A DNA stretch of 34,768 nt from Hellea sp. (GTDB taxonomy: Bacteria > Pseudomonadota > Alphaproteobacteria > Caulobacterales > Maricaulaceae): positions 1 to 34,768 of the forward strand of contig JAHDDT010000010.1 in assembly GCA_020629195.1 (NCBI GenBank), in the 5' to 3' direction. Below are positions 10,307 through 32,066 of this stretch, piece by piece (positions within the stretch are counted from its first letter, which is position 1; each line of letters starts with the position of its first letter). A program made the position numbers and the translations under genes. The notes below the pieces were generated by a model, which did not search any database, was not told the origin of the DNA, and was given only the letters and a program-made list of their open reading frames with translations.

Positions 10307-10318
10307 GGCCAAGCCCGC

Positions 10319-13490: not shown

Positions 13491-13556
13491 GGTAACGCGC
13501 TATTGAACCCAAAGACGCCCTGCCTTAAAGACGAGAAAATTTTACGAGGATCCCTC

Positions 13557-14513
13557 ATGGCGAATATTGTCATTTCAGGCTGCGGAAATATTGGAAGCCG
13601 CCTTCTACAATCTGTTTCAAATATTGATGATCCAGATATCGGCACGCTTGATATTTACGGCATTGACCCGTTTCAAAGCTCACTTGACATGTCCACCGAG
13701 CGCTTCCATCAAGAAAATAAAGGGGGGCACAACCTCCATATGAGTATCGAGAATTCTGACCTGCCCTCAGAAACCGACCTTCTCATAGTTTCCGTGGACG
13801 CCGCTAATCGATTAGCTGCTCTGACCGCTGTGCTTGAGCACTGCAAACCAAAAGCTATTATTTTAGAAAAAATTCTATTCAACAAGTTTGAAGAATTTGA
13901 CACGGTTCAGACCATTTTAGATGAACTTGGCGTTCCTTGCTGGGTCAATTGTTCGCGCAATATATGGCCAGGCTATCAATCTCTTAAAGAGACTTTAAAC
14001 GGCAAGCCTGTTAAATCCTATATAGTTTCAGGTTCGGATTGGGGCTTGGGATGTAACGCCATTCATTTCATAGCGGCCTTGGAATATGTCGCAGGAGACA
14101 CAGTAACTTCGCTAGAAATGGACCAAGATACAGCGCTGATCCGAAAGTCAAAACGTGCAGGCTATAAAGAAGTCACGGGCACACTCCGCGGCATAACCGC
14201 CTCGGGCGGCACAATTTCGCTGTCTTCCCTACCTGTTGAAGGGCAAGCTATTTCCGTTGTCCTAGAAGCCGGAGACGATAGTTATGAAATTGCTGAGGGA
14301 AAAACGATAGCTCTTAATGGCGGCGACAAAGACCCCTTCCCAATGCTATATACGAGTCAACTCACAGCGCCTCTGGTCAAAATTTTAAAAGAAGGACAGT
14401 CTGATTTACCAAGCTATACACAATCCGTTCATCAGCATAAGATATTGTTCAAAGCTCTAAATGATGTGTTTTATGGAGTGGGAAATAGTGAGGTTCAATG
14501 TCCAGTGACATAA
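13557..14513 (+). CDS. Gfo/Idh/MocA-like NAD(P)-binding protein (putative sugar oxidoreductase)
   Basis: N-terminal Rossmann IVISGCGNIGSRLLQ, AIILEKILFN at the usual EKP position, CWVNCSRNIWPGYQSLKE. ATG 13557 with ACGAGGA upstream preferred over the track TTG at 13503. Confidence 0.65.
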   Translation: MANIVISGCGNIGSRLLQSVSNIDDPDIGTLDIYGIDPFQSSLDMSTERFHQENKGGHNLHMSIENSDLPSETDLLIVSVDAANRLAALTAVLEHCKPKAIILEKILFNKFEEFDTVQTILDELGVPCWVNCSRNIWPGYQSLKETLNGKPVKSYIVSGSDWGLGCNAIHFIAALEYVAGDTVTSLEMDQDTALIRKSKRAGYKEVTGTLRGITASGGTISLSSLPVEGQAISVVLEAGDDSYEIAEGKTIALNGGDKDPFPMLYTSQLTAPLVKILKEGQSDLPSYTQSVHQHKILFKALNDVFYGVGNSEVQCPVT

Positions 14514-16552
14514 AGACAGTAGAACATGCTGAAACTGACGCGGAAAACCCAAAAACCGCTACATCAACGCCGTGCAATATTGTCTTTTTATCCATTCCTC
14601 CTGCTGCGCTCGACACGCCCCTAACAGGCTATGCAGCACGCATAATCAAAGAGTCTGACGCAACGCTTGTTCTAAACTTTGGCGGAAAATTAATGGATTT
14701 TGTGCGCCGGCAAGGGCCGCAAAACCTCATGAGTCTGTCTGATTCACGCAATCTAGACTCCGCGACAGAGCGGGAACTCTTCTCACTTGTCAATTATGAT
14801 ATCTCAACGATTGGCCTCGCTTTAGACGATGTTCGCGTTTCCAAAGTGCCTACAGGATCAGCTTGGGCCTTGGGATTAAGACCCCTGATTTTCAGAGAGC
14901 TCTATGCGGCACATCGCTTGCGCCGGGTTATGGAAGAAGGGTACCGCTCAATTGTTGTGGTTAGCAGCGCAATCTCTATTGTTGAAAAAGCCGTTTTATC
15001 GCGGCTGATCGACTTGCAGCGCAATGGCGACGTTATTGTCAATGGCGTAGGCCAGATAAAAAAAGGCTTAGTGGAAACAGTAAACGTTGCTGACATTATG
15101 ACGATCAGAGCCAAGCTCGCTAAAAGACGACATAACCTTGAACTCACCGCCGCGCCATTTGACGTGGAAACACTCGCAGGGGATTTTAGCGCCATTAAAG
15201 GAGAGCAACCCTCACCCGCGGATGTTTTGCTCTTACATCTGACGGATAATGCGATGTTCCACCAGAATGTCATCCCCGTATTAGACGAGCTCCAAAGACG
15301 GAAAGTCAACGCAGCCGTTTTGATGGCCGGAGGCTTTAGCACAGAACTCTATAAAGGCCGAAAATTAGCCGAAAAATGGAATGTTGCCTCTGTAAATCAG
15401 AAGTTTGAAATTACGGATGTCGAGCAAACCGCGAGAATACAAAACGCAATTCGAGATCGCATTGAAGCGAGCTGCATAGGCCTGATACCGCCTGTCAGTT
15501 GGGCTCCGGTGCTCGCAACGCAATCAAAATCTTACATGAACAGAACCGTCAATCAACTTCTGATCTTTCATAAGGCTTTCAACGTTATGATAGGACGGAC
15601 GAAAGCGACGTCTATTTATATGACTCAATCGCCAGACACCAATCCATTGGCTTATCTGGCAGTAGCCGCAAGTGGCAGCCGGGCAAGATCCTTTTATAGT
15701 TTTTCTGCTTTTCTTAATGGTAGTGAAAGAACACTTCCATTCGTGGCCCCTGCCATACTTTTGGCGGGCGGGCAGCATGATATCGATATTTTAAAAGCGC
15801 GAAATAGTGACGTGGCCGCAGAAGCTAGCGTAGTTGGAATACCTGCTTTGGATGCTTTAATTGATGCCAATAAAGACGACGAACGTCTCAAGCTCGCGAG
15901 CGTCTTGGACGCCTCTGCGCGACGTCCAATTATAACCATCATGACAAGCCGTACCTCTCCTGAAGATGAAGATCCGTGGATAGCTCGCCTCGTTAGATGG
16001 AGTGCAAAACAAGATATAGATGTCATTTTAGCCCGTACTTCTCGTAAAGGGACCGCAGATTTGTCAAAGTTTATGAATATGGCAAAGAGCCAGGACTGGA
16101 CTCATGTGACTCTCGTTGAGCAGACAGATCTTGTGAATGCCGCTCTAATTGCTAGCGATTTAGTCGTTACGAATAAACCCGCTTTGGTCTATAGTGCGAT
16201 CTCTACAGGTGTTCCTATAATACAAACAACTATTGGCGACAGCCTCCTGATGCCTGTAGAAAAAGGTATGGGTTTTACGGCTTCATCTGAAACGCAATTG
16301 CAAGACATCATAAATAGCGCATTATTAGATGACGGATTTATTCCTGCTGATATTCAACAACGCAGAAAAGAGTTTTTAAATAGACTCAACGATGGCACCA
16401 CAGAGACGGCAGCGCAACGCATCGTACAAAAATTCCTAGATACAGATGGAATTATAAATTTTGAGACACCTTTTGTTGAAAAACTTATGCCAGGGCGTTT
16501 TCCGAATGAAATTTTTAGTATCATTTCGCGCGCTAATTTCAATACAGTTTAA
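14498..16552 (+). CDS. Large protein with GT-B-like glycosyltransferase C-terminal half; putative surface glycan transferase
   Basis: 684 aa. Repeating beta-alpha segments and C-terminal TDLVNAALIASDLVVTNKPALVYSAISTGVPIIQT, resembling nucleotide-sugar-binding halves of GT-B/CDP-glycerol-transferase-like enzymes. Overlaps the previous CDS by 16 nt with GAGG upstream. Confidence 0.5.
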   Translation: MSSDIKTVEHAETDAENPKTATSTPCNIVFLSIPPAALDTPLTGYAARIIKESDATLVLNFGGKLMDFVRRQGPQNLMSLSDSRNLDSATERELFSLVNYDISTIGLALDDVRVSKVPTGSAWALGLRPLIFRELYAAHRLRRVMEEGYRSIVVVSSAISIVEKAVLSRLIDLQRNGDVIVNGVGQIKKGLVETVNVADIMTIRAKLAKRRHNLELTAAPFDVETLAGDFSAIKGEQPSPADVLLLHLTDNAMFHQNVIPVLDELQRRKVNAAVLMAGGFSTELYKGRKLAEKWNVASVNQKFEITDVEQTARIQNAIRDRIEASCIGLIPPVSWAPVLATQSKSYMNRTVNQLLIFHKAFNVMIGRTKATSIYMTQSPDTNPLAYLAVAASGSRARSFYSFSAFLNGSERTLPFVAPAILLAGGQHDIDILKARNSDVAAEASVVGIPALDALIDANKDDERLKLASVLDASARRPIITIMTSRTSPEDEDPWIARLVRWSAKQDIDVILARTSRKGTADLSKFMNMAKSQDWTHVTLVEQTDLVNAALIASDLVVTNKPALVYSAISTGVPIIQTTIGDSLLMPVEKGMGFTASSETQLQDIINSALLDDGFIPADIQQRRKEFLNRLNDGTTETAAQRIVQKFLDTDGIINFETPFVEKLMPGRFPNEIFSIISRANFNTV

Positions 16553-16936: not shown

Positions 16937-19900
16937 GTGACATATTCAGCTGAATATGAGACGCAACGAACGGGCCTCAGGCTCGTTCTACTGTCTTTGA
17001 TTAACCGTATTTTTTTATGGTTTCTGACTCGCTTCTCGTCTCAAGCTGGTACAAGTCCCTTGTGGCGGCTTTGCAGCCGCTTTTTGTTTGCAGAAATGCG
17101 CATTCGCCAATGGCGTGGCCCTTTATCCGCAAAACCCTATATTCAGTTCGAACATTTTTTTGCTAATTCCCCAGAGCATCTAGAACGCTTTCAGAATTTT
17201 GTAGCGGGTCAGGAAATTTTCGTTGATCTCTTAGCGGCAAATTGGTTCGAATATTTACCCATTAAAGACCGTGTCCCAGTTACCTCACTTTTTCGGCGTA
17301 TATATGAAAAAGAAAATGTGTGGCTGTCTTACCGGAACCGCCCAGCAATTGTTGACCGGATTCAAACCTTAGAAAATGTGGATCAAGACTCTCTTCCAGA
17401 AGATGTTTTCAGATCACCCGAACCCTCTGTTAGTGGCGGCATGGCCCTATGGTTAGTCCTGTCGAAATCAGTTTCAGCTTTCTGGAACACGATCGAAACA
17501 GGTTTTTCAATCATTTTTCGTACTATAGACAAGTTGTTTTCTTCAATAACCCTCGCAATTTTAACGATACCACTTTTGATTATAGGTCTTTTCAGATTTG
17601 TCTCTCCATCGGTTGGAGCATGGATAACACGTTGCAAAATAAGCCAATTAGCGGGCTTAAAACCTGGATCAAAAAAGATCGGAAACCTGCTCAGCGGGTA
17701 TGAAACAAAATATACAAATAATGCTGACCAAGTAAAAAAAATCGGACAAATTTTAAGTCAGCCCGCCATGCGCCCTGTTCTTTCTGAGAACGGCCTCGAT
17801 AATCTTGAATTTAAAGACCGTGTATTAGTCACATCCCTTTTGCGCCGCTGCGCAGCCAGTGATCCCGAGTTCAAAAATGTTATAGACAGAGCTGCACTTA
17901 ATGAAGCCATCGCAGTTAAAAACCAACGTGATGTCGCGCAATTAACGCGTCCAAACGAAAAACAGAAAGCCGAATGGGAAATCTTTAAAAAGACTAATCC
18001 TGGAAACAAACATAAACACGCGAAATCTACTGACAAACCTACAGAAAACAAAAGACCTGTTCGGGCATCACTTCCCCCCACAAGTGAGTCTGTGCTTCAG
18101 AAGGACGGCTGGTTCCTGCCAGCAGATCCTATGGCTATGCAAGTGGCGACAGCGGTGCGGGAACGTGCTTTTGGTGACGCGACCAGACTCATAAATAATC
18201 CTGACAATTTTGAAACGCTTTCTCAACCAATGAAAGTGAAATCCGCTGCCATTATGGCTTTGTTACAAGAGCCGCTCGCTCATGATGTTACGGAATATGG
18301 AATTGATGAAGAGCTTTTGGTTCCCAAGCGCATTACGAACCGCGCCGCCAAAGCCCAAGCTGACGCCGCTTTTGCAATGGCTGCGAAACAGCTCTATCCT
18401 GTTTTTGAAGGCGAAGCCGCACGTTCTCCTATCGCGTGCTGGACGACGCTTGAGGACGTATTAGATGACGATACAGAATTTTCATATGCCGCAGAAATTT
18501 TAACAGCTTCATATTCAGATATCCCGTTCAGGCGAATCTCTGACAGATCAGTATCGTTTGATATTTTCTTGATTTTACGACTCGAAGAAATTTTAGAGAA
18601 AATCCGGCTCTGGGTTGACTGGGACGCCTGCCCCGCATCTGCCCTTACGGCTTATGCCTATGCAGCAGCAATGATTGGCGACAAATCTAATTTCGATTTC
18701 TTCATCGCGACATTAGACGGGTTTGACGATGTTCCGCAGCGCTTTGTTATTAATCTGAGAGATAGTTTCTTTAAATATGGAATGCATAGAATTGATGCCG
18801 TCCTATCACCTGGCACCGCTCGTTCAACACCTTCACTTTTGGAGTCTCTGGATAAAGAAAAAAAATATTTGTGCTTGGTCGAGCGCGGCGCACGCATCCA
18901 AGTCCTGCGGCACATTGAGGGCGTTAGTAATAATTTGACTTGCGGGCCTGTCGCGCCCGTCGATGCCGTAAAATACCCGTCTTCGGCGAACTTAGTTCAA
19001 GCCGAAGATTTTATTCCCATTTACTCCACGGAAGATATGGAAATCGGCTTGGAAGTTGATCGCCTGACGGAACATTATCTAAACCATGCAGCGGATAAAT
19101 TCAGAGAGACAGGCGTTGCAGAGCTATATGAAAAAGGCATCGAAATCGCTCATGCCTTGGTATTTTTAGCACTTTACCGCTCAATGATTTCAGCCAGAAT
19201 TTGTGAAAAATTAATGGCGCGAGCCAAAGAATATGATGGTATCATTCTACTCACTAAGACTGGTGATATTTTGGGTAATATGATCGCTCCTGCGATTAAA
19301 GCCGTTGGTAGTGAAAATGTTTTTGTTTCCCTTGGTTCCAGACGCTCTGATGAATATTTTAGCGCCCTAACCACAATGCGGGCTTGCGCCAGAACAACCC
19401 CGGAAACTCGCCCTGTAAAACCAATACCTGTCCTCGATAACCCTGACGCTTGGATGGCTGGGATGACGAGTTGGATTTCTGAGACTATTAGCTTTCACAG
19501 CAAAGCTGTTAAAAAGCTGGGCCCTGGCCCCTATTCCATAATGGGATTTGAACAAGTCAACGGATTTTATGACAGCTACAGGGCTTTGATACGTGAGGGA
19601 CTACCCCATAGTCATGTCGAGCTTTTCAGCTCTACTGGCAATGTTCAGCTTCACGACCACATGCTAGAAGGCGGATTTGCGCCTTATGAAACTGATTATG
19701 AACTTCGACATTGCGTTTTACGCAGACGCTCTCCAGACGCCAGAAATTGGGTTACGCCTTTTGTTCAATCACTTCGCGAAGGTTTTGATGACATCGAAAG
19801 TCCCTACCTGCCGATGTTCAAAAATCTATTTGTAAACAGTGCTGAATCAGCTTTAGCGCAGCGTCTTCCGCAATCCATGGACGCTCTGAGCTATTTCCGC

Positions 19901-20770
19901 ACCCGCTTTGATAAAGGTTTACCTGACTATGTCTTCACGGCGCCAAGTCAGCATATGATTTCACGCGCGGCTGCTTATTGTGCAAAAGCGGCAGGCGTTC
20001 CATCTTATGACTTTTTGATTTTGGCTAACACAAATCATCCCCGTTACAGACCCATCATTGCTGACTACGCTTATCTTTACGATCCGTGGTATAAAGAAAT
20101 TTATCAAAGCTTCTTTGGTATGAAAGAAGAGCAACTGCGGACCGCAGGGCCTCTCTTTGAATACAGCGAACGCCTCAAACAGGCTCCTAATTTGGATTAC
20201 GCAGCTCCGCGCGGAAAAACACATATTGTCTTCTTCTCTCAGAGTGCCAATTTTGACAATTCTAAACTTATGTTGGAAGCAATCTGCCAAGCCACAAATG
20301 AACGAAACGATATCTATATAACGCTTAAGTTACACCCGCATGAAAGCCCGGCGAATGTGGGACGCTACACACAAATAGCAGCTGATAACGGTATTAAAGG
20401 AAACATCCATGTCTTCCACCACGGGGATGCGGTTGCTTTGCTAAACCAAGCGGATTTAGTCGTACAAAGCTTTTCTAATATTGGTCTCGATGCGCTTTTA
20501 TTGAAAAAACCTGTCATTACGTTTAAGCCTAAAACAGACTTAAAAGCGCGAATATTCCTTTATGAGAAGGATATCGGTTACGTGGTGAGTACAAAACGCA
20601 CCCTAACAAATAAAATTAAAAAGTTTCTCAAAGATCCCAAAGATCGGGTCGAGATGCAAAAAATTGCAGATAAATTTGCTTCAGAGAACGATCATTTTCT
20701 ACGCGGACAAAATGCAGCCCGCGTGATGAAGGCCGTTCAGGAAGACATCAAACGACTAAACCACTCTTAA
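16937..20770 (+). CDS. Very large (1277 aa) putative membrane-associated glycan transferase: duplicated N-terminal domain flanking a hydrophobic segment, GT-B-like C-terminus
   Basis: GTG start per track (start uncertain). Internal repeat KDRVPVTSLFRR / KDRVLVTSLLRR, hydrophobic SITLAILTIPLLIIGLFRFVSPSVGAW, C-terminal ITLKLHPHESPANVGRY...ADLVVQSFSNIGLDALLLKKPVITF, similar to capsule/teichoic-type GT-B transferases. Confidence 0.6.
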   Translation: MTYSAEYETQRTGLRLVLLSLINRIFLWFLTRFSSQAGTSPLWRLCSRFLFAEMRIRQWRGPLSAKPYIQFEHFFANSPEHLERFQNFVAGQEIFVDLLAANWFEYLPIKDRVPVTSLFRRIYEKENVWLSYRNRPAIVDRIQTLENVDQDSLPEDVFRSPEPSVSGGMALWLVLSKSVSAFWNTIETGFSIIFRTIDKLFSSITLAILTIPLLIIGLFRFVSPSVGAWITRCKISQLAGLKPGSKKIGNLLSGYETKYTNNADQVKKIGQILSQPAMRPVLSENGLDNLEFKDRVLVTSLLRRCAASDPEFKNVIDRAALNEAIAVKNQRDVAQLTRPNEKQKAEWEIFKKTNPGNKHKHAKSTDKPTENKRPVRASLPPTSESVLQKDGWFLPADPMAMQVATAVRERAFGDATRLINNPDNFETLSQPMKVKSAAIMALLQEPLAHDVTEYGIDEELLVPKRITNRAAKAQADAAFAMAAKQLYPVFEGEAARSPIACWTTLEDVLDDDTEFSYAAEILTASYSDIPFRRISDRSVSFDIFLILRLEEILEKIRLWVDWDACPASALTAYAYAAAMIGDKSNFDFFIATLDGFDDVPQRFVINLRDSFFKYGMHRIDAVLSPGTARSTPSLLESLDKEKKYLCLVERGARIQVLRHIEGVSNNLTCGPVAPVDAVKYPSSANLVQAEDFIPIYSTEDMEIGLEVDRLTEHYLNHAADKFRETGVAELYEKGIEIAHALVFLALYRSMISARICEKLMARAKEYDGIILLTKTGDILGNMIAPAIKAVGSENVFVSLGSRRSDEYFSALTTMRACARTTPETRPVKPIPVLDNPDAWMAGMTSWISETISFHSKAVKKLGPGPYSIMGFEQVNGFYDSYRALIREGLPHSHVELFSSTGNVQLHDHMLEGGFAPYETDYELRHCVLRRRSPDARNWVTPFVQSLREGFDDIESPYLPMFKNLFVNSAESALAQRLPQSMDALSYFRTRFDKGLPDYVFTAPSQHMISRAAAYCAKAAGVPSYDFLILANTNHPRYRPIIADYAYLYDPWYKEIYQSFFGMKEEQLRTAGPLFEYSERLKQAPNLDYAAPRGKTHIVFFSQSANFDNSKLMLEAICQATNERNDIYITLKLHPHESPANVGRYTQIAADNGIKGNIHVFHHGDAVALLNQADLVVQSFSNIGLDALLLKKPVITFKPKTDLKARIFLYEKDIGYVVSTKRTLTNKIKKFLKDPKDRVEMQKIADKFASENDHFLRGQNAARVMKAVQEDIKRLNHS
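16941..16958. repeat. 18-bp perfect palindrome CATATTCAGCTGAATATG
   Basis: Read directly; the sequence equals its own reverse complement. It lies just after the annotated GTG at 16937. Confidence 0.85.
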
Positions 20771-20848: not shown

Positions 20849-21895
20849 ATGAGCACAGTATGCTATGACGGCCCTAGTAACTTTATCGACATTGTCGAAA
20901 AGGACGGGTATTTCTTGATTAAAAACTTTTTTAAGCGCGAAGCTGTCGAAAAGGCACGTGCAGAACTAAAAGTTATTCTCGACAAAGACGAAGCCCGCCG
21001 CAAAAAGAACCCTGGCCCTCACGTTGATTCAAGTGTTGAATACAGGTCGATTTATACAAAGCTGATGCACACAATTTGGTTTCCAAGTTTGCAGTCACCG
21101 ACCTACTTAAATCTTACAAATGACATGTTTTCCTCAGCCGTTATGAAGGACTTTATCAGAGGTTTGGCTGGTGATAATTTCCGCATGCGTGTTGACCTCA
21201 TACGCCGCAGTTCAGGCGATAATGACTGGGTCGATGACTTTCAACTCCCTCATGTTTGGCACCGGGATACTTTGGGTGAATTTACTTTCGGTATCTTCTT
21301 TGATGATATGCCTGAATCTGGCGGTGGTGGTACAGCTGTAATTCCAGGTACACATTGGGATACGCGCGACCCCCGTTGGGATCTTATGCTTGGCCCTGAG
21401 AAAAACATGACGCGCAAACATCATTTGGGCAATAGAGACCTCCTTACAATGCCAGCGGACTACGTCGCCGATGCCAAACTCAATCAGCGTGTTGCGAAGA
21501 AAGCCAATAAAAAGAAAGTCGAAATTTCAGGCCAAATGGGAGATATATATTTCTTCTTGAATGATACGTGGCATGGCCGTGCCCCTAACATTACAGATAA
21601 GCGTTGGATGATTTCACGCATAGGCTGTTTCGGTACAGAATTTCCTTTCAAAGACGATATACCCCTCCCTGCTAGCATTAAAAATCTCACAGGGCCGATG
21701 AGTGAGCATTTTAACCGTCATCAAACACCTAATACGCAAACAGATACTTTGCTGCGCCGAATGGCTTATAAGCGCAAATCAAATCTATTGACCCGTATGG
21801 CCGCACGAGAGAAAGATAAGCTCTTGACCCGGTTTTACAGCCAGCCTGATATCGCGGCTGCACGTGAAGCCGTCCTTAATGCGCATAACGTTTAG
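20849..21895 (+). CDS. Phytanoyl-CoA dioxygenase (PhyH)-like Fe(II)/2-oxoglutarate-dependent oxygenase
   Basis: VWHRDTLGEFTFGIFFDDMPESGGGGTAVIPGTHW (HxD plus following strand) and NDTWHGRAPNITDKRWMISRIG (distal His, Arg). Confidence 0.8.
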   Translation: MSTVCYDGPSNFIDIVEKDGYFLIKNFFKREAVEKARAELKVILDKDEARRKKNPGPHVDSSVEYRSIYTKLMHTIWFPSLQSPTYLNLTNDMFSSAVMKDFIRGLAGDNFRMRVDLIRRSSGDNDWVDDFQLPHVWHRDTLGEFTFGIFFDDMPESGGGGTAVIPGTHWDTRDPRWDLMLGPEKNMTRKHHLGNRDLLTMPADYVADAKLNQRVAKKANKKKVEISGQMGDIYFFLNDTWHGRAPNITDKRWMISRIGCFGTEFPFKDDIPLPASIKNLTGPMSEHFNRHQTPNTQTDTLLRRMAYKRKSNLLTRMAAREKDKLLTRFYSQPDIAAAREAVLNAHNV

Positions 21896-21912: not shown

Positions 21913-23565
21913 ATGTCCACCACGTCTAAAGAAAACCGCGCTTATTTAAAGCGCGCTTGGCGGCACATTCTGGGCACAGGATTGTGGCGTCATAAGGGAC
22001 GAGCCTCTGTCATATTTCTGACAGGCTTCTTGACAACAGCCATTCAAATTTTTGCGGTTCTACTTTTAGTCGGAGCCGCCCGCGCTTATGATGCAGAGGG
22101 GCTCTTATCTTACGGCCCTCTCAATATTGATTTATCTAAATCGGCAGGTAACAATCAGCTGATTTATGCCAGCCTTGCAGGCGCAATGTTGATATTTTCC
22201 ATATTGGCTGGAATTGGACATAAACTGATCGTGACCCGTATCGGCCGTAAATTTTACGAGGATCTGTTGATGGACACACGGCACCGCTTGGTCGATGCTG
22301 TTAAAGGTGGACGTGGCTTTGATCGAAGTTCCTATCTTCAATATCTCAGCCGTGACTGCCGATATCTCAGCCTGAGTTATGTTCGTGTTATGAATCTGAT
22401 ACAGCCTGCACTGCTTCTGATATCCGTCTTTATTATATCTTTGATGACAGCCCCGATCGCCGCGGCTTTTTTAGGGATTGCGGGATTACTGGTTCTGCCG
22501 CTGAATATTTATCTCGTGCTGTGGGCCGCTCGCACCTCCCAAGATATTCAAAATTCGGCAAAGCTCAAAAGCAAAGAAGAGGCGGATTTTGTGACGCGCG
22601 TTAGCTCCGACCCCTTCATCACAGAGTCACAGCCAAAAGACCTTATACAAACAAACCGTCCAGGAGAGGTTGGATTCCTAGGAGCCTTTGTCAAAAGGCA
22701 ACGTATGGGCGCCTATAGTCAATCCATCACCGATCTCATGATGGCCTTGGTTGTCATTGCTCTGGCCGCATTTTTATTCTTTGGCGACGGCAATGCCCTC
22801 CTCCTTAAACTCTCTAGCCTTTTAATTCTGCTCATCTTATTTCGCTTTATCACCGGCTACATTTCCAATCTCTCACAAGCCATTATGATGGTCTCCTCTT
22901 ATGAACCTTTTTTCCGGCCCTTGCTCGACTTGCGCGGTGGGCAAGATACGCCGCATGTTTCCGCAGTGCTTAAAAGCGAGCTGGACAGTCCTGTTCGTGC
23001 CGCCGTATTCCAAATCAAAAAGAGCGATTGGTCTGATGTCAGCGCAATTACGACCGCTTTGAAGTTAAATTGTCCCTTGCAAATTGTAACGTCCGATTTC
23101 ACCGTCGAGGCATCACGCGTAACAACTATTTTAAAAACTATCGCAACAGGTGAGCTAAAGCTCAGTGACGCTGTTATGGCCGAGTTACAATCCTATAGTA
23201 ACGGGACGTCAGATATGCTGTCCAACACAGCCAAACTTTTTTTAACGCTGTGCTTTGGAGTCGCCCAAGAAAATACCGGCTTTCTGATAGATGGAGCGCT
23301 GTTGCGCGATTTGGACCGACTTGATTTGCGTACAATATTTAGCGCGGCTGGGGACAAACCCATTATCGTTATTTACCGCTCTGTTCCTCGCCGCCTTGTT
23401 CTACCGCCTCGGTTTCAATTGATTAGCCGTAGCGAGTCAGATTTTTCATTGATTTGCAATGCACATGAATTTGCCGAAAAACGTGATACAATTTTAGAAA
23501 AAATGCAAACGCCTCAAAGTGTAGCCGAAGACAATAGCAATGACTCAGCTGATATTATTATCTAG
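21913..23565 (+). CDS. ABC exporter-like protein with transmembrane domain and apparently degenerate nucleotide-binding domain
   Basis: About five to six TM segments over the first 330 aa. The C-terminal part has an NBD-like layout but no GxxGxGK[ST]; Walker B-like GFLIDGALLRDLD lacks the Glu; the H-loop-like IIVIYRS has Tyr. Confidence 0.6.
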   Translation: MSTTSKENRAYLKRAWRHILGTGLWRHKGRASVIFLTGFLTTAIQIFAVLLLVGAARAYDAEGLLSYGPLNIDLSKSAGNNQLIYASLAGAMLIFSILAGIGHKLIVTRIGRKFYEDLLMDTRHRLVDAVKGGRGFDRSSYLQYLSRDCRYLSLSYVRVMNLIQPALLLISVFIISLMTAPIAAAFLGIAGLLVLPLNIYLVLWAARTSQDIQNSAKLKSKEEADFVTRVSSDPFITESQPKDLIQTNRPGEVGFLGAFVKRQRMGAYSQSITDLMMALVVIALAAFLFFGDGNALLLKLSSLLILLILFRFITGYISNLSQAIMMVSSYEPFFRPLLDLRGGQDTPHVSAVLKSELDSPVRAAVFQIKKSDWSDVSAITTALKLNCPLQIVTSDFTVEASRVTTILKTIATGELKLSDAVMAELQSYSNGTSDMLSNTAKLFLTLCFGVAQENTGFLIDGALLRDLDRLDLRTIFSAAGDKPIIVIYRSVPRRLVLPPRFQLISRSESDFSLICNAHEFAEKRDTILEKMQTPQSVAEDNSNDSADIII

Positions 23566-23567
23566 CA

Positions 23568-23633
23568 ATGGCTATGGATATGCTTAAAACACAGTCAAGC
23601 GGGCCAAAGGATATTGCTGTAAATGCTATTTAA
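23568..23633 (+). other. Possible 21-codon upstream ORF overlapping the MBOAT start
   Basis: ATGGCTATGGATATGCTTAAAACACAGTCAAGCGGGCCAAAGGATATTGCTGTAAATGCTATTTAA (MAMDMLKTQSSGPKDIAVNAI*). Its end overlaps the MBOAT start codon at 23623-ish. Confidence 0.25.
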
Positions 23634-25119
23634 TTCTTACACATTCATCTTTCTGTTTGTGCCTTTGACGCTGTTGCTCACAGGGCTTGCCCGCCGTTTT
23701 GCAGGGGTACGCGGAGCTTCTGCCATATTGGTCGCAGCCTCACTCTTTTTCTACGCCTATCACGACATACGCCTTCTAGCCCTTATTGGCGGATCTATCG
23801 TCATAAACTATCTACTTACGGGTTTAATCTTCCAGGCAGAGGGGCGACGACGTTATTGGACAACTGTTCTCGGCGTAGTACTCAATTTGGCTCTGCTCGC
23901 TTATTTTAAATATACAAATTTTTTTCTGGAAAATATTTCTGCACTTTCAGGCGCTGAATTCGATTTTAAAAAGATTGCCCTGCCTATTGGCATCTCATTT
24001 TATACGTTCCAGCAAGTTGCCTATAATACGGATACTTACAGCGGTAAAATCAAAGAACGGGACTTTCTATCGTACGCCCTTTTTGTAGCCTTTTTCCCTC
24101 AGCTTATCGCGGGTCCAATTGTCCATCATGGGCAGATTATTAAGCAATTTGCTTCTGAGGCTTTTGGCCGGATTAAGTGGGAAAACATCCTCATTGGCGC
24201 GAGTATCTTTGGTTTAGGGTTGTTTTCGAAAAAGATACTGGCTGATACATTTGCAGGATATGCAACACCCGTTTTTGTCTCTGCAGATCAAGGTGATGCG
24301 GTAAGCTTTCTAATGGCCTGGAAAGGATCCCTTTCCTACACGTTCCAGATTTACTTTGACTTTGCGGGCTATTCAACCATGGCCATTGGGTTGGGCCGCA
24401 TGTTTGGCGTGAAGCTTCCAACTAACTTTTTCTCGCCCTATAAATCTACAAATATTATCGAGTTTTGGCGCCGCTGGCATATCACGCTCTCGACCTTCCT
24501 CAGAGACTATCTTTACATCGCTATGGGCGGAAACCGTAAAGGAAAAGCCCGCCGCTGGTTCAACCTGCTTGCTACGATGGTTCTCGGCGGACTATGGCAT
24601 GGCGCAAGCTGGAACTTTGTCATCTGGGGTACGCTTCACGGAATTTACCTCGTTATAAACCATGCTTGGAATATGCTTACGAAAAAAGTCGCGCCGCTGG
24701 GCCGCATGCAAAAAACGACGGCTTGGAAACTTGTCGGATGGCTCATTACTTTTATTGCCGTCGTCGCCGCTTGGGTTGGTTTCCGCGCGGTTACGCTTGG
24801 CGGAAACCTGTCCCTCTTGTCTTCAATGTTTGGCTTTAAAGGTCTTGGCGACATGGGTGCCGACCTTGCCACGCTAGATCTAAAATTCTGGCTTTTCTTA
24901 GTCGCGGGCTTCTTTATCGCACTTGGCATGCCGAACATGGCTCAAATATTTGGAAATGTGCGGGCCACTTATGAAGAGCATGGCCCGGCCAAAGCTTTTG
25001 GCCTTATCACCATTAGCTATAGGCCTAATCTGATATGGACAGCGGCCATGGCTATCATTGCCGCCATCGCAGTCTTCTATCTGTCCCCCACCACTGAATT
25101 CTTATATTGGGCATTCTAA
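23623..25119 (+). CDS. MBOAT family membrane-bound O-acyltransferase (AlgI-like)
   Basis: LPIGISFYTFQQVAYNTDTYSG, QLIAGPIVHH, FDFAGYSTMAIGLGRMFG, EFWRRWHITLSTFLRDYLYI, LGGLWHGASWNFVIWG with the conserved His. Confidence 0.96.
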   Translation: MLFNSYTFIFLFVPLTLLLTGLARRFAGVRGASAILVAASLFFYAYHDIRLLALIGGSIVINYLLTGLIFQAEGRRRYWTTVLGVVLNLALLAYFKYTNFFLENISALSGAEFDFKKIALPIGISFYTFQQVAYNTDTYSGKIKERDFLSYALFVAFFPQLIAGPIVHHGQIIKQFASEAFGRIKWENILIGASIFGLGLFSKKILADTFAGYATPVFVSADQGDAVSFLMAWKGSLSYTFQIYFDFAGYSTMAIGLGRMFGVKLPTNFFSPYKSTNIIEFWRRWHITLSTFLRDYLYIAMGGNRKGKARRWFNLLATMVLGGLWHGASWNFVIWGTLHGIYLVINHAWNMLTKKVAPLGRMQKTTAWKLVGWLITFIAVVAAWVGFRAVTLGGNLSLLSSMFGFKGLGDMGADLATLDLKFWLFLVAGFFIALGMPNMAQIFGNVRATYEEHGPAKAFGLITISYRPNLIWTAAMAIIAAIAVFYLSPTTEFLYWAF

Positions 25120-26666
25120 TGAGTGAGCATTCTGTCGATAACACCATCAGCTACACGCAAAAGCCGGGCTGGAAAATGCTCGTCTTTCTCTGCGTGTTCC
25201 TCATTGCGGGCGCCATTTCTATTGTAAAGTTTGACAGCTACTTCACCGACTTTTGGAAAATCCGTAAATGCAATCCCGAAGGCTATGAACGTGGGGACTT
25301 TATGACTTCGTGCGGCGGTATTAAAGTTGATCGTTACGCATTCGGATCCATTTATTTGGGCTCACAAAAAAATGCTGTAAAAAATGCAAAGACAGCAGAT
25401 GTTATTGTCTTTGGTAACAGCCGCACCATGCGATCTTTTTCAACAGATGCTATAGATAACTATTTCAAAAACAAAGGCTTGACCTATGTTATTTTCGCAG
25501 TTGAAGGTGCCAGTTATGCCTCTGCTCAGTACACCGTAAATAAATTAGGCCTTAAGCCCAAAATTGTCATGACCAATACTGAAATTCTCCATACCGATGT
25601 TGTTGGGGCTGCCTTTGGTGATTTGGTTTACTTTCCCGATAAATATAAAACTAGATTTGACTTTTTCCATGCCGCTCAGAGCGTACAAAAATGGGCCTGC
25701 AGCAGCGGCATTGAAGCTCTTGAAAATTACTACTGTAAGGGCCGCCAAGGCGCAGGCTGGAGATCCGCTGTTACAGGGCGTTTCAAATGGGAACTTGTAG
25801 CTGAACCAGAAAAAAATAAAGTTTTCACAGCGCGTAAAGAAGCAAACCCTCCAGTGGGCCGACTGAATACAATATTACCAAATGCCCGTGAGTTCCTCGG
25901 AAACTCTAATTTCAAGGACTCTTGCCATGTGCTGTATTTGGTTAACTCTCCAAGCTCAGAACCTAATCTGCAGACTGCTTTGGCGGCTGAGGTTGGCGCC
26001 TTACCAGTCTATACGCCTTTTAATGATCTTCGTACATATGACAAAAGTCATCTTGACCGTCCAACATCGGAACGGTGGGCAAGTGCGTTCGTGAAGGATT
26101 TAGACCCTATCCTTGATAAGTGTCTTGCAGGTGAAGGTAAGTACGAGCCGGAAGAAATTGAAAAATTTGATATCGAAACATCCGACATCGCCGGAATGAC
26201 AGATTTCGAAACATGGACATTTCGTGAGGGCGCGTCAGTAGAAGATGCGGCTGCAAAAGGTCTAGATGGCAGTAAGACTGCCGACATCATAAATATTGAA
26301 AAAGCTGGAGCTCGGCTGCAAAAAATATATCGGGAAACGGCCATTAAAGCTGGAATGACGGTCACATTTGGCGGTTGGTTTTGGTCCGATGAGGACGTTG
26401 CTATGCGGGCTCAAATTGTTCGGTCTTGCTCACGCAAAACACCTGTCGAGGCTTTAGATACATATTTCAGCCTGTCTAAACAACCGAAGCGTCATGAAAT
26501 AAGCTATACTTTCAAACAAGATCATGCCTGCGCCCTTGTCCAAATTACAACAACCCGCGATGACAGCACTATTTTCGGATGGCGTTATCGCACTGATTTC
26601 ACCCAAGCGCCTGAAACGCCTACCGATAACACGCAAGAAAATTTTCCAGTTGAACCTCAAGAATAA
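25119..26666 (+). CDS. Membrane-anchored SGNH-like protein with C-terminal beta-rich/CBM-like region; probable partner of the MBOAT
   Basis: N-terminal TM (MLVFLCVFLIAGAISIV), GNSRT (25413-25427) as SGNH block I-like, DKSHLD (26040-26057) as Asp/His block. TAATG coupling to the MBOAT gene; ATG 25119 preferred over the track TTG at 25107. Confidence 0.65.
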   Translation: MSEHSVDNTISYTQKPGWKMLVFLCVFLIAGAISIVKFDSYFTDFWKIRKCNPEGYERGDFMTSCGGIKVDRYAFGSIYLGSQKNAVKNAKTADVIVFGNSRTMRSFSTDAIDNYFKNKGLTYVIFAVEGASYASAQYTVNKLGLKPKIVMTNTEILHTDVVGAAFGDLVYFPDKYKTRFDFFHAAQSVQKWACSSGIEALENYYCKGRQGAGWRSAVTGRFKWELVAEPEKNKVFTARKEANPPVGRLNTILPNAREFLGNSNFKDSCHVLYLVNSPSSEPNLQTALAAEVGALPVYTPFNDLRTYDKSHLDRPTSERWASAFVKDLDPILDKCLAGEGKYEPEEIEKFDIETSDIAGMTDFETWTFREGASVEDAAAKGLDGSKTADIINIEKAGARLQKIYRETAIKAGMTVTFGGWFWSDEDVAMRAQIVRSCSRKTPVEALDTYFSLSKQPKRHEISYTFKQDHACALVQITTTRDDSTIFGWRYRTDFTQAPETPTDNTQENFPVEPQE

Positions 26667-26726: not shown

Positions 26727-29105
26727 GTGATTGTTTTTGACTACATTTATTATTTAGCCGCAAAGCTCATATATGAATTGAGACGCCGCTTACCATTATA
26801 TGCTGATGATACAGCGCGCATAAATTCGTTATATGCATTTGCGCTCCTTAAGTATTTTCAATCTCCACGATTATCGCTTCAAAGAAAAAAACACTTTTTT
26901 GACCTTTACGCTAAACGTTTCTCTATGCCGGTTTCGGTAAAACGGATGGCGAAAACACTTTATTGCGATCCGAAACGTGCCGAGTTTCTGTCATATCTGA
27001 GCAACGGTGAAAACACCCTATCTACGGAACGCATGAGGCAGCGCGTTATTCAAGCTTTAGGGCGCCTTCCAAAACACCAACTTAATCTTACCCCCAAGCT
27101 GATAGATAAATTGACTCGTCCGGTGCTGCCATATTTTTCGTCTCGTTACACGCGTTTGTTGTTTCACTCTGGACGGAGCCGAGCAGAAAGTTTCAGTGTT
27201 ATAGAACATGAAATCGCAAACGGTTTAGACAGAAAGGGAAAAGCTATATTATGCCTCCCACTTGGAAGGCTTGTCAAAGCGGACCTTCAAGCTCTCAAAG
27301 GTTACTCTGAGATCATTATTATGCCGCAAATGCCATGCAACAAAATCCTTATCAAAGACGAATTGACAGCTACATTAGGAACTAACCTCACAGTCAAATT
27401 TTATAACCCTAAAGACCATCACGCTGCCCCCTATTCCCGCGGGGACTCCTTCATATCCAAAGCCTGTGATGACTTGGGACAACAATTTATTAATGCGGCT
27501 CTAGCGTCACCCTCCATTCGCCGCTTCATTCCTGAAACTTTGGATCAAGATTTAGCCCTTGATATCTCGGATATCATTTACCGTCCGGTACAACGTTTCT
27601 ATGCGACACTGAGGTCGATTGAGACTCAGGGCCCTAATATTCCTGTGTATTTCAGCGGCCCGTCAAATGCTCTCCCGCGTACATTGGCATTGATGGGACT
27701 GAACCCCGTTTACATATTAGGCCAAGGCTCAGGCGTCGCAAGCGATGAGGACACACAAGATGAGTGGCTTTTGGAACCTTCAGCCAAAGAGATGAGCGCT
27801 GGACTAAACGTCTTCATGAAAGCTATAAAAAAGCGGCTGCTTGGCGCACTTCCGCCCATCCCGAATGACGGACAAAAATGCATTTATATTGCCACCAATA
27901 CGCGCTCGAAAAGTTATGAACTGGCACATAGCTTAGTTTTGCAAGAACTGCTGAAAATAGCCCCAGTCACAACATTTGATTTCGCTGCGCCTAAAGGCAT
28001 CAGAAACCTCTCTAAAGCCAGCCTCACGCCTTGCCTTTATAATGCCCTGCACAGCGCCGATAGCGGGGAACGGGCTTTGCTGTCTCATTTTGTCCAAGCG
28101 GGTAGCCGTATGACCTTAGACGGCCAAAGTATTGGGGCGTTCCCTGCCAGCGAAATGAAAGAGATTGTAAGCATCGCACTGGAGCAAAATATAGGCGCGC
28201 TCATCGGGAATGTTATTCTCTACCGCCTTATGGTTCAAAAGCTGAAAGAGGTAAAAAATGCGCAGCTTCTTTTACTGCCGGGGCGGCACGGAAATATACG
28301 CTGTCTTGCCCGCGCTTTTGAGACAGCCGGTCTCCCTAGTCTCGATGTACAGGTTCTATTTGTCTCAGAAATGGCCCGATACAAAGCGCCAATGACCAGC
28401 TCAAGCACCGTCATCGATAGCTATGCCAAAACCCGTTACGTCAAGGATTGGGGGCAATCTAGCGAAAGCGTTCACGTTATTGGCGCCATAAATCTTGATG
28501 AAGATATAAAAAAAGCCAAATCTTATGACAGACAAGCAAGCCGTAAAGCCCTGCTCGGATCGAATAAAACACGCACCGTAACTTTTGCGGCTCAACCGCT
28601 GCCAGATACTGAAATTGAGGCCGCCGTTCAAACCATTGCCAAAACGGTCAAAGCACAGAAAAATCTTCACCTCTGCATTAAACTTCATCCTTCACAATCG
28701 GAAAGCTTACTGGGACATCTAAGTGAATATTTAATGTCAGAGTTTGGAGATAAAACGCGCTTCACAGTTTTGCGCAATGTAGGCTTTGCAAAAGTCATTG
28801 CCGTGACAGATATTTTAGTCAGTTATTTTTCCAATGTCTGCCTTATGGCACCAGCCTTTAATGTTCCAGTGATAACACTGCCAAGTTCAGCCCCCATGCC
28901 CGCTCTCACATTGTCGAAAATGGGCCTAGCAGTCGCAGCAGAAAGCTTGGAAGATTTTGAAAAACAGTTGGCTCTGATTTTAAACCAAATGGGGACTAAA
29001 GATGAGAGCCTACCGCCATTTCCTTATCTGGAGGAAAACCCCCATATGATGAAACCTGAGTCTCTTGAGAGGCTAGCTAAAATTGTTAAAGACGGGTTTC
29101 TCTAA
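26727..29105 (+). CDS. Large (792 aa) GT-B-like putative glycan transferase
   Basis: C-terminal LHLCIKLHPSQSESLLGHL...AVTDILVSYFSNVCLMAPAFNVPVITL, parallel to KLHPHES...VVQSFSNIGLDALLLKKPVITF in the 1277-aa protein. GTG start per track. Confidence 0.55.
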   Translation: MIVFDYIYYLAAKLIYELRRRLPLYADDTARINSLYAFALLKYFQSPRLSLQRKKHFFDLYAKRFSMPVSVKRMAKTLYCDPKRAEFLSYLSNGENTLSTERMRQRVIQALGRLPKHQLNLTPKLIDKLTRPVLPYFSSRYTRLLFHSGRSRAESFSVIEHEIANGLDRKGKAILCLPLGRLVKADLQALKGYSEIIIMPQMPCNKILIKDELTATLGTNLTVKFYNPKDHHAAPYSRGDSFISKACDDLGQQFINAALASPSIRRFIPETLDQDLALDISDIIYRPVQRFYATLRSIETQGPNIPVYFSGPSNALPRTLALMGLNPVYILGQGSGVASDEDTQDEWLLEPSAKEMSAGLNVFMKAIKKRLLGALPPIPNDGQKCIYIATNTRSKSYELAHSLVLQELLKIAPVTTFDFAAPKGIRNLSKASLTPCLYNALHSADSGERALLSHFVQAGSRMTLDGQSIGAFPASEMKEIVSIALEQNIGALIGNVILYRLMVQKLKEVKNAQLLLLPGRHGNIRCLARAFETAGLPSLDVQVLFVSEMARYKAPMTSSSTVIDSYAKTRYVKDWGQSSESVHVIGAINLDEDIKKAKSYDRQASRKALLGSNKTRTVTFAAQPLPDTEIEAAVQTIAKTVKAQKNLHLCIKLHPSQSESLLGHLSEYLMSEFGDKTRFTVLRNVGFAKVIAVTDILVSYFSNVCLMAPAFNVPVITLPSSAPMPALTLSKMGLAVAAESLEDFEKQLALILNQMGTKDESLPPFPYLEENPHMMKPESLERLAKIVKDGFL

Positions 29106-29728
29106 GCAATTGCAGCCGGATTACCATAAGCCGTCGCGCCGTTTGGAATATCACCTATGACAACGGCTCCTGCGCCAATGGTTACAGTCTCGCCAATACT
29201 CACAGATTGTTTTAGCGTTGAACCTACACCAATGAGGCTATGCTTACCCACGGTGACATTGCCAGAACATGTTACGCCTGGCGCGATGTGAACATGGTCT
29301 CCAATGTTTCCGTCATGGTCAATAATCGCCCCTGTATTTATGATACAATTTTTACCAATCACTGTGCCTGTATTGACGATCGCGCCTGCCATTAAAACGC
29401 TGCCTGCCCCGATGTTAACGCCGTGTGACAACATCGCCATAGGGTGGATAGCCACAGCAGGCGTTAGGCCAAGCTTAATGACTTTATCAAAGAGTTCAGC
29501 TCTTAGAGAGGCTCCGCCTTTAACGCTGCCTATACCGATAATAAAGCTGCTAATAACGCCGCTCTTAATTAAATCTGGAATATCAGCGTCACCCCCTAAT
29601 AACGGTAAAGGCAACTCAGCAGAAACATTATTGTCAATAAATCCTGCGGCTTCCCTATTGGCGGCTTGCAAAATAGAGGCGACCACACGGCCGTGACCTC
29701 CAGCGCCTATAATCGCTATTCCGCTCAT
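29102..29728 (-). CDS. neuD: NeuD/PglD-type left-handed beta-helix acyltransferase (LegH candidate)
   Basis: IAIIGAGGHGRVVASILQ N-terminus; hexapeptide repeats (IGAGSVLMAGAIVNTGTVIGKNCIINTGAIIDHDGNIGDHVHIAPGVTCSGNVTVG). Confidence 0.92.
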   Translation of the reverse strand: MSGIAIIGAGGHGRVVASILQAANREAAGFIDNNVSAELPLPLLGGDADIPDLIKSGVISSFIIGIGSVKGGASLRAELFDKVIKLGLTPAVAIHPMAMLSHGVNIGAGSVLMAGAIVNTGTVIGKNCIINTGAIIDHDGNIGDHVHIAPGVTCSGNVTVGKHSLIGVGSTLKQSVSIGETVTIGAGAVVIGDIPNGATAYGNPAAIA

Positions 29729-30903
29729 GTGTTTATCCCGTGAAAAGCTTTGCGCGGTCCATGCCCTGCCTTAAGAAAATCAGACACAGCCATAACAATT
29801 TTATCAGCCGCATGACCATCGCCATAAACATTGAGGCGCGCATCACAAATAGTTTTAAACTCAGACGTTTGCGCTTTTAAAATCGCAGCTTTCAGAGCCT
29901 TTACATTACCCTCAGTCTGAATGAGGTTAGCTGATGCCTCACGCCCCTTTTGACGGTCACCAATATTGACAACGGGCAAGCCGAAACTGGCCGCCTCCAA
30001 AATACCGCTAGAGCTATTTCCAATCATCATTGCCGCATGTTCCATGGCCGAATAATAACCTTTTGCGCCCATATGACCAATGAGCATTTGACCTTCGGTT
30101 TTTGCTACAAAATTCTCTATCTTCGCGTTGAGAGCGCGGCCTGCTGTATCGGCATTCGCAGCGGTGAAAACGCAATTGATACCTGTCTCGCGAATAGTCT
30201 CAAAGAGCGCCTTAATCTCAGCGGCCGTTGCCTCTAAATCGAGCGTAACGGGATGATAGGTTATAAGGGCAAAGTCGCCGCTTTCAGGCAAACCAAATTG
30301 CTTGGCGAGTTCAGTACGGGATAATCTCGGCACGGCTGCAATATTATCAAGGGCGGGAGCCCCGCTGACGATTATCCGCTCAGTTGGTTCACCCATTTGG
30401 CGGATGCGGGACGCTGCAAGTTCTGTCGCGCAGCAATGTAAATGCGAAAGTTTCGTCAGCATGTGGCGCAGAACATTGTCCATTGCGCCTTCGGTTTCCT
30501 CGCCGCCATGAAGGTGACAAATAGGAAGCCCTCGCGGCACGCCAGCAAGAGCGGCAGCCGCCATCTCAAAACGGTCACCCAGAACCATCAGCATGTCGCA
30601 CGCTATAGTCTCCAGCGCGTCCGCCATGCCTCGCGTGGCTTGCCCCATGCTGAGTCCAATATCCTTGGCCGTATCACCAGAGGTCAAACACTCAAATTTT
30701 GCCGCAATCGGCCAGCCGCTTTTTTCGACTTCAGTAAACGTATAGCCAAATTCTTCTGACATATGCATGCCTGTCACGATGAGTGAGGGACGAATATCTG
30801 GATGTGCCTCAAGCGCGCGTAAAACGGGTTGGTAGATAGAAAAGTCAGCTCGGCTGGTTGTAAGAACAGCTACGTGCCACGGCGTTTTAGGCGTAGAGCC
30901 CAT
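29725..30903 (-). CDS. neuC: Hydrolysing nucleotide-sugar 2-epimerase (NeuC/LegG)
   Basis: VLTTSRADFSIYQPVLRAL, VLGDRFEMAAAALAGVPRGLPICHLHGGEETEGAMDN, GNSSSGILEAASFGLPVVNIGDRQKGRE. Confidence 0.95.
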   Translation of the reverse strand: MGSTPKTPWHVAVLTTSRADFSIYQPVLRALEAHPDIRPSLIVTGMHMSEEFGYTFTEVEKSGWPIAAKFECLTSGDTAKDIGLSMGQATRGMADALETIACDMLMVLGDRFEMAAAALAGVPRGLPICHLHGGEETEGAMDNVLRHMLTKLSHLHCCATELAASRIRQMGEPTERIIVSGAPALDNIAAVPRLSRTELAKQFGLPESGDFALITYHPVTLDLEATAAEIKALFETIRETGINCVFTAANADTAGRALNAKIENFVAKTEGQMLIGHMGAKGYYSAMEHAAMMIGNSSSGILEAASFGLPVVNIGDRQKGREASANLIQTEGNVKALKAAILKAQTSEFKTICDARLNVYGDGHAADKIVMAVSDFLKAGHGPRKAFHGINT

Positions 30904-31946
30904 TAGCCTAAATGCTCCATCCCGATCACAGTGTCGGCAGCAATATCCGCTTTAGCTTTACGGCCCAAAACAAGGGGAATAAGGCGCGGCGCAAGACCAG
31001 TCCCAGGACGTTTGCAGATGAGATGTTTATCTTCAATGACGGTTCCCGAAGGAATATCGCAAGCCGAAACGATAGAACGCCGCGCGACCTTCGCCGTGTC
31101 AAATTCGGACGGTTGCGGACGCTTCACACCATCACCCAGCGCCGCTTCGACATCACGGAGTTTACGGATAAGGTCAGCAAATTCGGTAGGCTCTAAGGAC
31201 GCCTTATGGTCGGGGCCAGGCATAGATGTATCTAGCGTGTAATGCTTTTCCAAAATTTTTGCGCCGCGCGCTATGGACGCCAAAGCAATCGCATCGCCAA
31301 GCGTATGATCTGACCACCCGACAGGCACATTGAAAGCCGCTGACAATGTATCCATAGCGCGCAGGTTTGCTTCCTCTGGCGCTGCGGGATAGTTACTGAC
31401 GCAGTGCAGGATCGCGAGCGGCGGGTTACCATTTTCACGTATCGTTGTGACCGCTTCTTCAGTCTCGGCCATATTCGCCATGCCGGTTGAGATAATCATT
31501 GGTTTTCCCTTACCCGCCATATGGGCGAGCAACGGCAGGTTCGTCAGATCGCCAGAGGAGACTTTATAGCCCTCAACCCCCACATCTTCGAGTAGGTCTG
31601 CCGCCTCTTCATCAAAAGGCGTAGACAGGAAGACCATTCCAACTTTTTTGCAGTATTTTTGACACGCTTGCAGATCAGCTTTAGAAAGCTCCAAGCGTTT
31701 CAGCATCTCAATTTGGCTACCTGCCTCGCCATCATTTTTCTTTTGATAGGCGGCTTTTTCAGCTGTGCGCGTGGCCAGTTTCTCTGCCGAAAAGGTCTGG
31801 AATTTAACCGCATCAGCCCCCGACTCAACGGCAACATCTATCATTTTCTTTGCGAGCTCAAGCGAACCATTATGATTAACGCCAATTTCACCAATGACGA
31901 TGCAACCGTCTTGCCCGTTAAACCAATTTGCAAAAGCGTTTGTCAT
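30903..31946 (-). CDS. neuB: N-acetylneuraminate/legionaminate synthase (NeuB/LegI)
   Basis: CIVIGEIGVNHNGSLELAKKMIDVA, ADAVKFQTF, ISTGMANMAETEEAV, HCVSNYPAAPEEANLRAM, GWSDHTLGDAIALASIARGAKILEKHYTLD; C-terminal SAF/antifreeze-like region. ATG at 31944-31946 preferred over the more upstream track start. Confidence 0.95.
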   Translation of the reverse strand: MTNAFANWFNGQDGCIVIGEIGVNHNGSLELAKKMIDVAVESGADAVKFQTFSAEKLATRTAEKAAYQKKNDGEAGSQIEMLKRLELSKADLQACQKYCKKVGMVFLSTPFDEEAADLLEDVGVEGYKVSSGDLTNLPLLAHMAGKGKPMIISTGMANMAETEEAVTTIRENGNPPLAILHCVSNYPAAPEEANLRAMDTLSAAFNVPVGWSDHTLGDAIALASIARGAKILEKHYTLDTSMPGPDHKASLEPTEFADLIRKLRDVEAALGDGVKRPQPSEFDTAKVARRSIVSACDIPSGTVIEDKHLICKRPGTGLAPRLIPLVLGRKAKADIAADTVIGMEHLG

Positions 31947-32066
31947 AATTATCAATACCTTGGACTCTGTCCATACTTGTGCGGCTCTCATGAACATTCA
32001 AGTTGATTTTTGCAAGTCTATATGTGACGTAGCGAACAAAGGGCGCAAACAGACTTGGGACTTAAC

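Follow-up and report, generated by a model that had tools for sequence, protein, structure and literature searches.

ABC transporters are defined by their use of ATP. In the SbmA/BacA (SLiPT) secondary peptide transporters, the nucleotide-binding domain (NBD) has been dropped entirely, and an exporter-type membrane domain with a glutamate ladder operates without an ATPase, powered by the proton gradient (PMC13316013). Many exporters are heterodimers in which one of the sites is degenerate (PMC7756269); in TM287/288, TAP, and Pdr5, catalytic residues are replaced, but an intact half and one complete site are kept. A functional precedent only, of unrelated family and fold context, is EcpK, a catalytically dead tyrosine pseudokinase from the EPS pathway of Myxococcus, for which a scaffolding role in polysaccharide assembly and export has been proposed (PMC12004946). 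Searches of open-licence literature turned up no description of an ABC exporter family in which Walker A is wholly lost.

Here, we describe a family of this kind, the pseudo-ABC exporters, starting from a gene of Hellea sp., a genus whose family we take to be the Robiginitomaculaceae of the Caulobacterales. Hellea and its relatives are marine stalked bacteria. The window, i.e., the whole stretch of DNA that was analysed, comprises 34,768 nucleotides and is a single contig (JAHDDT010000010.1) from a 2.18-Mb assembly that is 76.5% complete (GCA_020629195.1). The gene occupies positions 21913–23565 on the + strand and encodes 550 amino acids from an ATG start, exactly as first described. Like the type IV (type I) ABC exporters (MsbA, PglK, Atm1, and Cgt), its product has a homologous membrane domain, matches such exporters over their full length in Foldseek searches, and has a C-terminal domain at the position of the fused NBD with the same order of segments. 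Unlike them, it has lost Walker A, the signature, the catalytic Glu, and the H-loop His, and the loss of Walker A and the signature extends throughout its family. It resembles the SLiPTs in having an exporter-type membrane domain, but it keeps a pseudo-NBD and no glutamate ladder is seen; PF05992 (SbmA/BacA) matches neither the window protein nor anything in its own genome. With the degenerate-site exporters it shares the replacement of catalytic residues, including a Tyr at the H-loop His as in Pdr5, but no intact half was identified for it and it has no complete site. Searched against Pfam, NCBIfam, and the PDB sequences, the 550-aa protein gave no match, PF00664 and PF00005 were unmatched by the window protein and by any of the 10 members scanned, and a plasmid search gave no match. 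The novelty of the family rests on these absent curated matches and on the lack of a described counterpart in the open-licence literature that was searched.

Conservation of the Gene and Its Family

The reading frame is unbroken and the gene order identical in three Hellea genomes: that of the window, that of Hellea balneolensis DSM 19091 (protein 84–85% identical), and a Hellea single-cell-type assembly (75%). The gene is retained across isolate, single-cell, and metagenome assemblies, and in these three genomes it is under strong purifying selection. The dN/dS values, which are rough because dS is saturated in several of the comparisons, are 0.03–0.05 for the membrane domain, 0.13 (closest pair) for the Walker A half of the C-terminal domain, and about 0.03, where estimable, for the stretch from the pseudo-signature to the pseudo-H-loop. 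The membrane domain is better conserved than the C-terminal domain, whose best-conserved part runs from Walker B to the H-loop (95% and 85% identity in the blocks at residues 461–500). The preliminary description had supposed that an intact ORF without ATPase landmarks is selected for a non-ATPase function, and these values support that supposition.

Eleven relatives, with identities down to about 15–20%, were found in two families of the Caulobacterales, so that the family has 12 members including the window protein. A scan of the genome collection with a narrower alignment recovered the two Hellea orthologs alone. No members outside the Caulobacterales were found among the 385 genomes of the class and 399 of the phylum that were sampled, and the weak profile matches obtained beyond that order proved to be either intact exporters or noise. 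The degenerate residues were checked, as had been proposed, in the 85% and 75% identical orthologs and in the nine distant relatives: all of them lack Walker A, and the loss is therefore neither local decay nor a sequencing error.

The architecture varies within the family. In genomes G108 and G114, the proteins are about 950 aa long (L029:12366–15218 and L030:13934–16792) and combine one membrane domain with three tandem pseudo-NBD-like units. When these are compared with the single C-terminal domain, support for homology is strong for the third unit (Prob 93, E 3e-7), moderate for the second, and weak for the first, although IVLDE can still be read in the first unit of G114. The relative in G296 (L080:7250–8419, the same gene as L038/L053) has 389 aa, which form a membrane domain followed by an acidic tail; it lacks the C-terminal domain altogether. 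In G047, a second copy of the gene has been split by transposase genes (L026:1744–2637 and 3733–4311), about 2 kb from the intact copy. This broken copy is what can be said for a functionless, decaying gene, an explanation that is scarcely credible in view of the intact frames in independent assemblies from three Hellea species and the low dN/dS of the membrane domain; for the lineage of the window, it is refuted by the purifying selection.

A Probable Degenerate Nucleotide-Binding Domain

The C-terminal ~200 aa (aa 341–550; 22933–23562, + strand) are very probably a decayed NBD, to judge from profile tests and from Foldseek searches with an AF2 model of the domain. A motif scan found a P-loop, LSGGQ, or a Walker B Asp-Glu nowhere in the window protein, and Walker A, even as a relaxed pattern, and the signature are absent from all 12 members. 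On the missing motifs, the scan agrees with the preliminary description, which had reported a transmembrane region followed by an NBD-like order of segments with no P-loop and with every ATPase landmark lost; the profile tests confirm the segment order, and the region before it is an exporter-type membrane domain.

One placement had to be moved. Walker A had been sought at PLQIVTSDF..., from aa 388, whereas this segment (aa 388–399; 23074–23109, +) is the equivalent of the strand that leads to the Q-loop, aligned with ALVTNEFPLIENDPF of G264. The pre-P-loop strand, “i.pGe..aiv”, is still recognised in the less-decayed relatives (score 29.5–31), and the Walker A-region remnant is therefore relocated some 25 aa upstream, to aa 359–385 (22987–23067, +). 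Here, SPVRAAVFQIKKSDWSDVSAITTALKL aligns with GEIISICMNGAAFSWSAAVTAL, GDIIAVAMNGATFSWAAAL, and GETLGVVANQPLFDW of those relatives. Trp373, which recurs across otherwise highly divergent sequences, sits where the start of the P-loop/helix 1 is expected. The remaining landmarks were located by alignment of a core profile, built from 15 domain cores of 11 members, with intact NBDs of the same lineage (a 15-domain profile). The signature-region remnant (aa 434–447, DMLSNTAKLFLTLC; 23212–23253, +) retains just “LS” at the place aligned with LSGGQ. The Walker B/D-loop remnant (aa 455–468, TGFLIDGALLRDLD; 23275–23316, +) has Gly in place of the catalytic Glu, and the H-loop remnant (aa 482–491, KPIIVIYRSV; 23356–23385, +) has Tyr in place of His: Asp460-Gly461 aligns with Asp-Glu and Tyr488 with His. 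The earlier assignments of the Walker B-like strand (FLIDGA, aa 457–462) and of the H-loop-like strand (PIIVIYRS, aa 483–490) were thus right by profile.

In this alignment, the signature, Walker B, D-loop, and H-loop are in register with the intact NBDs at a score of 27.0. Profiles with permuted columns (200 of them) scored 11.1 ± 2.0, with a maximum of 20.7, and the profile read in reverse scored 10.8. Cutting the core windows around the pseudo-Walker B favours the alignment somewhat, but both kinds of control were made from these very columns. The profile of the whole single domain scores only marginally against NBDs (18.9, with a null maximum of 18.0). The statistics for NBD ancestry come from the core of the domain, from the relatives, and from its position, and the whole C-terminal domain on its own is not significant.

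That marginal score, together with the Pfam and PDB searches that found no match, could be taken to mean that the C-terminal domain is unrelated to NBDs and was fused to an exporter-like membrane domain. The structure models, which were built from three close sequences, are of low confidence and serve as supporting evidence. The model of the C-terminal domain (pLDDT 60, pTM 0.56) matched P-loop NTPase-type folds, none below E 0.001; the first were Csn2 rather than exporter NBDs, and the further matches included the NBDs of PCAT1 and IrtA. The preliminary description had proposed structure prediction as a check and had named two refuting outcomes, a C-terminal fold unlike that of an ABC ATPase and orthologs with intact Walker A/B motifs; neither of them was seen. 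We regard an unrelated domain as improbable: the core profile is in register from the signature to the H-loop well above the null, relatives keep the strand before the P-loop (“i.pGe..iv”) and have a third domain that is homologous to the single one, and one of them retains IVLDE.

The Search for an Intact Partner

A degenerate NBD may also be one half of a heterodimeric exporter, or a regulatory half, with an intact partner encoded elsewhere in the genome, as the preliminary description had suggested. The commonness of exporters with one degenerate site and the Tyr that Pdr5 has at the same H-loop position speak for such an arrangement. The description had found no intact partner in the window, and the motif scan agrees: in the loci examined, each searched over about ±15 kb, no ORF carried both Walker A and a signature, and none of these loci yielded an intact ABC gene. 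Farther afield, an exporter group with a C39 peptidase (L008/L071/L072) occurs in the three Hellea carriers of the pseudo-ABC gene but went undetected in two non-carriers. This co-occurrence would suit a partner, but the group was rejected as an ordinary peptide exporter. The other intact exporters are either conserved in non-carrier Hellea or not shared by the three carriers, and no dedicated partner was identified among the intact exporters of these genomes. The three tandem pseudo-NBDs do not fit a heterodimer. Moreover, because this half has lost both Walker A and the signature, each of the two composite ATP sites would miss a half and neither would be complete. A heterodimeric or regulatory half is for these reasons very improbable.

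The Nonulosonate Locus

By its predicted gene content, the surrounding region is a nonulosonate (legionaminic-type) glycan locus. Just upstream of the glycan genes lies an ordinary DUF4129/MoxR ATPase/DUF58/SpoIIM/RDD cluster (7308–13490). On the + strand there follow genes for a Gfo/Idh-like oxidoreductase (13503–14513), with homologs in the loci of G033, G047, and G134; a 684-aa protein with no family match that is conserved in the Hellea loci (14498–16552); a 1277-aa glycosyltransferase-like protein with a Glyphos_transf/Capsule_synth C-terminus (16937–20770); and a PhyH-type dioxygenase (20849–21895), which is immediately upstream of the pseudo-ABC gene with a gap of 17 bp. The N-terminal ~900 aa of the 1277-aa protein have no family match, and its identity between Hellea genomes is 66–67%; the dioxygenase is 88–91% conserved in Hellea. 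Downstream, also on the + strand, are predicted genes for an MBOAT/DltB-like O-acyltransferase (23623–25119), a 519-aa protein with a weak DUF1574 match (25107–26666), and a 792-aa GT-B-like protein with an Epimerase_2 match (26727–29105); the window includes an MBOAT pair. Homologs of the 792-aa protein adjoin or neighbour the pseudo-ABC gene in G033, G047, G134, and G378.

The sugar genes proper come next. Three are on the − strand: a NeuD-type acetyltransferase (29102–29728; TIGR03570 above cut-off), a NeuC/NnaA-type hydrolysing UDP-GlcNAc 2-epimerase (29725–30903; TIGR03568 above cut-off), and a NeuB nonulosonate synthase with a SAF domain (30903–31997). Three more are on the + strand: a CBS-nucleotidyltransferase of the LegF/PtmE type (32055–33164), a Polysacc_synt_2 dehydratase of the LegB type (33055–34386), whose ORF overlaps the previous gene and whose true start is probably later, and a DegT aminotransferase of the LegC type (34399–34767), which is cut by the end of the window.

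The linkage recurs across the family. Genes for nonulosonate synthesis stand no more than about 15 kb from the pseudo-ABC gene in G006 (H. balneolensis), G004 (the other Hellea), G033, G047, G134, G108, G114, G264, and G378, the last seven of which are genomes outside Hellea where the gene stands among nonulosonate/glycosyltransferase genes. The G264 locus, for example, has genes of the CBS-nucleotidyltransferase, LegB, LegC, and NeuA types. Two relatives are exceptions: that of G300, on a contig too short to tell, and the membrane-domain-only gene of G296, in another glycan locus, in which NeuB was not detected. The type of glycosyltransferase beside the gene differs between loci. A protein of about 540–590 aa is encoded nearby in G108 (L029:17085–18716), G114 (L030:16798–18414), and G264 (L078:8450–10222); the L029 copy has no Pfam match, and BLAST finds no relative in the window. 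In G264, an ORF of at least 2123 aa (L079:5630–12001), running off the stretch, adjoins the nonulosonate genes.

Since NeuB is present in 81 of the 136 genomes of the family, its presence alone is common, and what is specific is the physical linkage and a shared subtype of NeuB. Of the seven top-scoring NeuB genes in the list of 136 genomes, six are linked to a pseudo-ABC gene (the seventh, from G008, is on a 5.3-kb contig), which suggests that the linked genes form a distinct subtype.

The Membrane Domain and the Question of Translocation

The first ~340 aa (21913–22932, +, with the boundary at 22933) are, by profile comparison and hydropathy, a type IV ABC exporter membrane domain. The membrane-domain profile matches ten intact exporters with an hhalign Prob of 97 (E 8e-11) and larger exporter sets with a Prob of 96.9 (E 1.6e-10), and aa 1–340 contain about six hydrophobic segments. 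With the full-length model, whose confidence is low (pLDDT 46), the best 50 Foldseek matches in the PDB were without exception type IV ABC exporters, with alignments that span their full length, headed by the cyclic-glucan transporter Cgt (E 3e-5). The conserved charges of the membrane domain are Arg. Arg150 (22360–22362, +), which directly follows the counterpart of coupling helix 1, and Arg311 (22843–22845, +) are invariant in 12 of 12 members, and position 262 holds Arg in 11 members and Lys in the remaining one. The final hydrophobic segment (TM6) contains Arg311, which is aligned with a Phe of an intact exporter, and a basic residue there would suit an anionic ligand. In the family alignment, no acidic column is conserved inside the hydrophobic segments, and there is no Glu/Asp ladder; the acidic columns kept in most members (Asp60, Asp137, Asp148, and Glu252) are loop sites only.

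These features bear on the possibility, which we consider rather unlikely, that the protein is an ATP-independent translocator, which would flip or export a nonulosonate glycolipid by alternating access, powered by an ion gradient or by downstream polymerisation, while the pseudo-NBD would do no more than stabilise the dimer. The membrane domain is that of a genuine exporter, it is conserved more strongly than the C-terminal domain, and a relative reduced to this domain stands in a glycan locus; the Cgt match fits as well, and SbmA provides the precedent of an exporter membrane domain run by protons after the loss of the NBD (PMC13316013). In addition, neither a Wzx-type nor any other flippase was detected in the pseudo-ABC loci, and this, together with the strong conservation of the membrane domain, favours translocation as a candidate role. 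Against this reading, Wzx-type genes occur elsewhere in the genomes that carry the gene, no intramembrane acidic ladder is conserved, and comparison with SbmA of the same genus gave no sequence link, although with a single sequence this is a weak test. Proton coupling of the SbmA type is unsupported by the conservation of acidic residues.

A Docking Module in Glycan Assembly?

We propose, with a probability of roughly one half (0.48), that the pseudo-ABC exporter has an ATP-free role in building or exporting nonulosonate surface glycans and that its NBD is a dead docking module. The type IV exporter membrane domain, presumably homodimeric, would lie in the inner membrane, while the fused ATPase domain would have retained its fold and lost all of its ATP chemistry. 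Most likely, the membrane dimer would bind, position, or move the acidic glycan or the lipid that carries it, and the pseudo-NBDs would form a cytosolic docking platform for the glycosyltransferases of the locus instead of a motor. If the pseudo-NBD docks rather than drives, the protein would work without ATP. The comparisons above demonstrate the homology, the family-wide loss of the motifs, the selection, and the linkage to nonulosonate loci; that the protein dimerises, binds the glycan, and serves in docking is what we infer from them. In favour of the proposal are the absence of Walker A and the signature from all 12 members despite the purifying selection, the relative that lacks a C-terminal domain, the recurrent linkage to nonulosonate genes and to the top-scoring NeuB genes, the invariant Arg150 and Arg311, the loci in which neither a Wzx-type flippase nor an ABC gene was detected, and the precedent of EcpK. 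Against it are the low confidence of the models, the weak score of the whole C-terminal domain, the unequal support for the tandem units, and the glycosyltransferases that differ from locus to locus.

Two features of the sequences favour docking. First, the conservation from Walker B to the H-loop is what would be expected of a binding surface. Second, three tandem pseudo-NBDs cannot form a two-NBD ATP sandwich, and this fits a binding platform. The docking and translocation roles are not mutually exclusive.

Implications

As the family is conserved beside the genes for sialic-acid-like surface sugars, its role there is probably one that consumes no ATP. More broadly, and somewhat more tentatively than the proposal for the window protein, we suggest that a lineage of exporters has given up ATP, turning its NBD into a docking module, which was tripled in some relatives and lost in one, and leaving an ATP-independent translocator or scaffold. 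The route by which SbmA went from an ABC exporter to a secondary transporter would have a parallel, and since the pseudo-ABC family keeps its dead domain, it could catch a route different from that of SbmA. With a conserved family that has a fused dead domain in a fixed pathway context, it becomes testable whether lipid-linked sugars can be moved or held by an exporter membrane domain in the absence of ATP, and what purpose a pseudo-NBD serves. The finding points to a part of the machinery for sialic-acid-like glycans in the Caulobacterales that has so far gone unrecognised.
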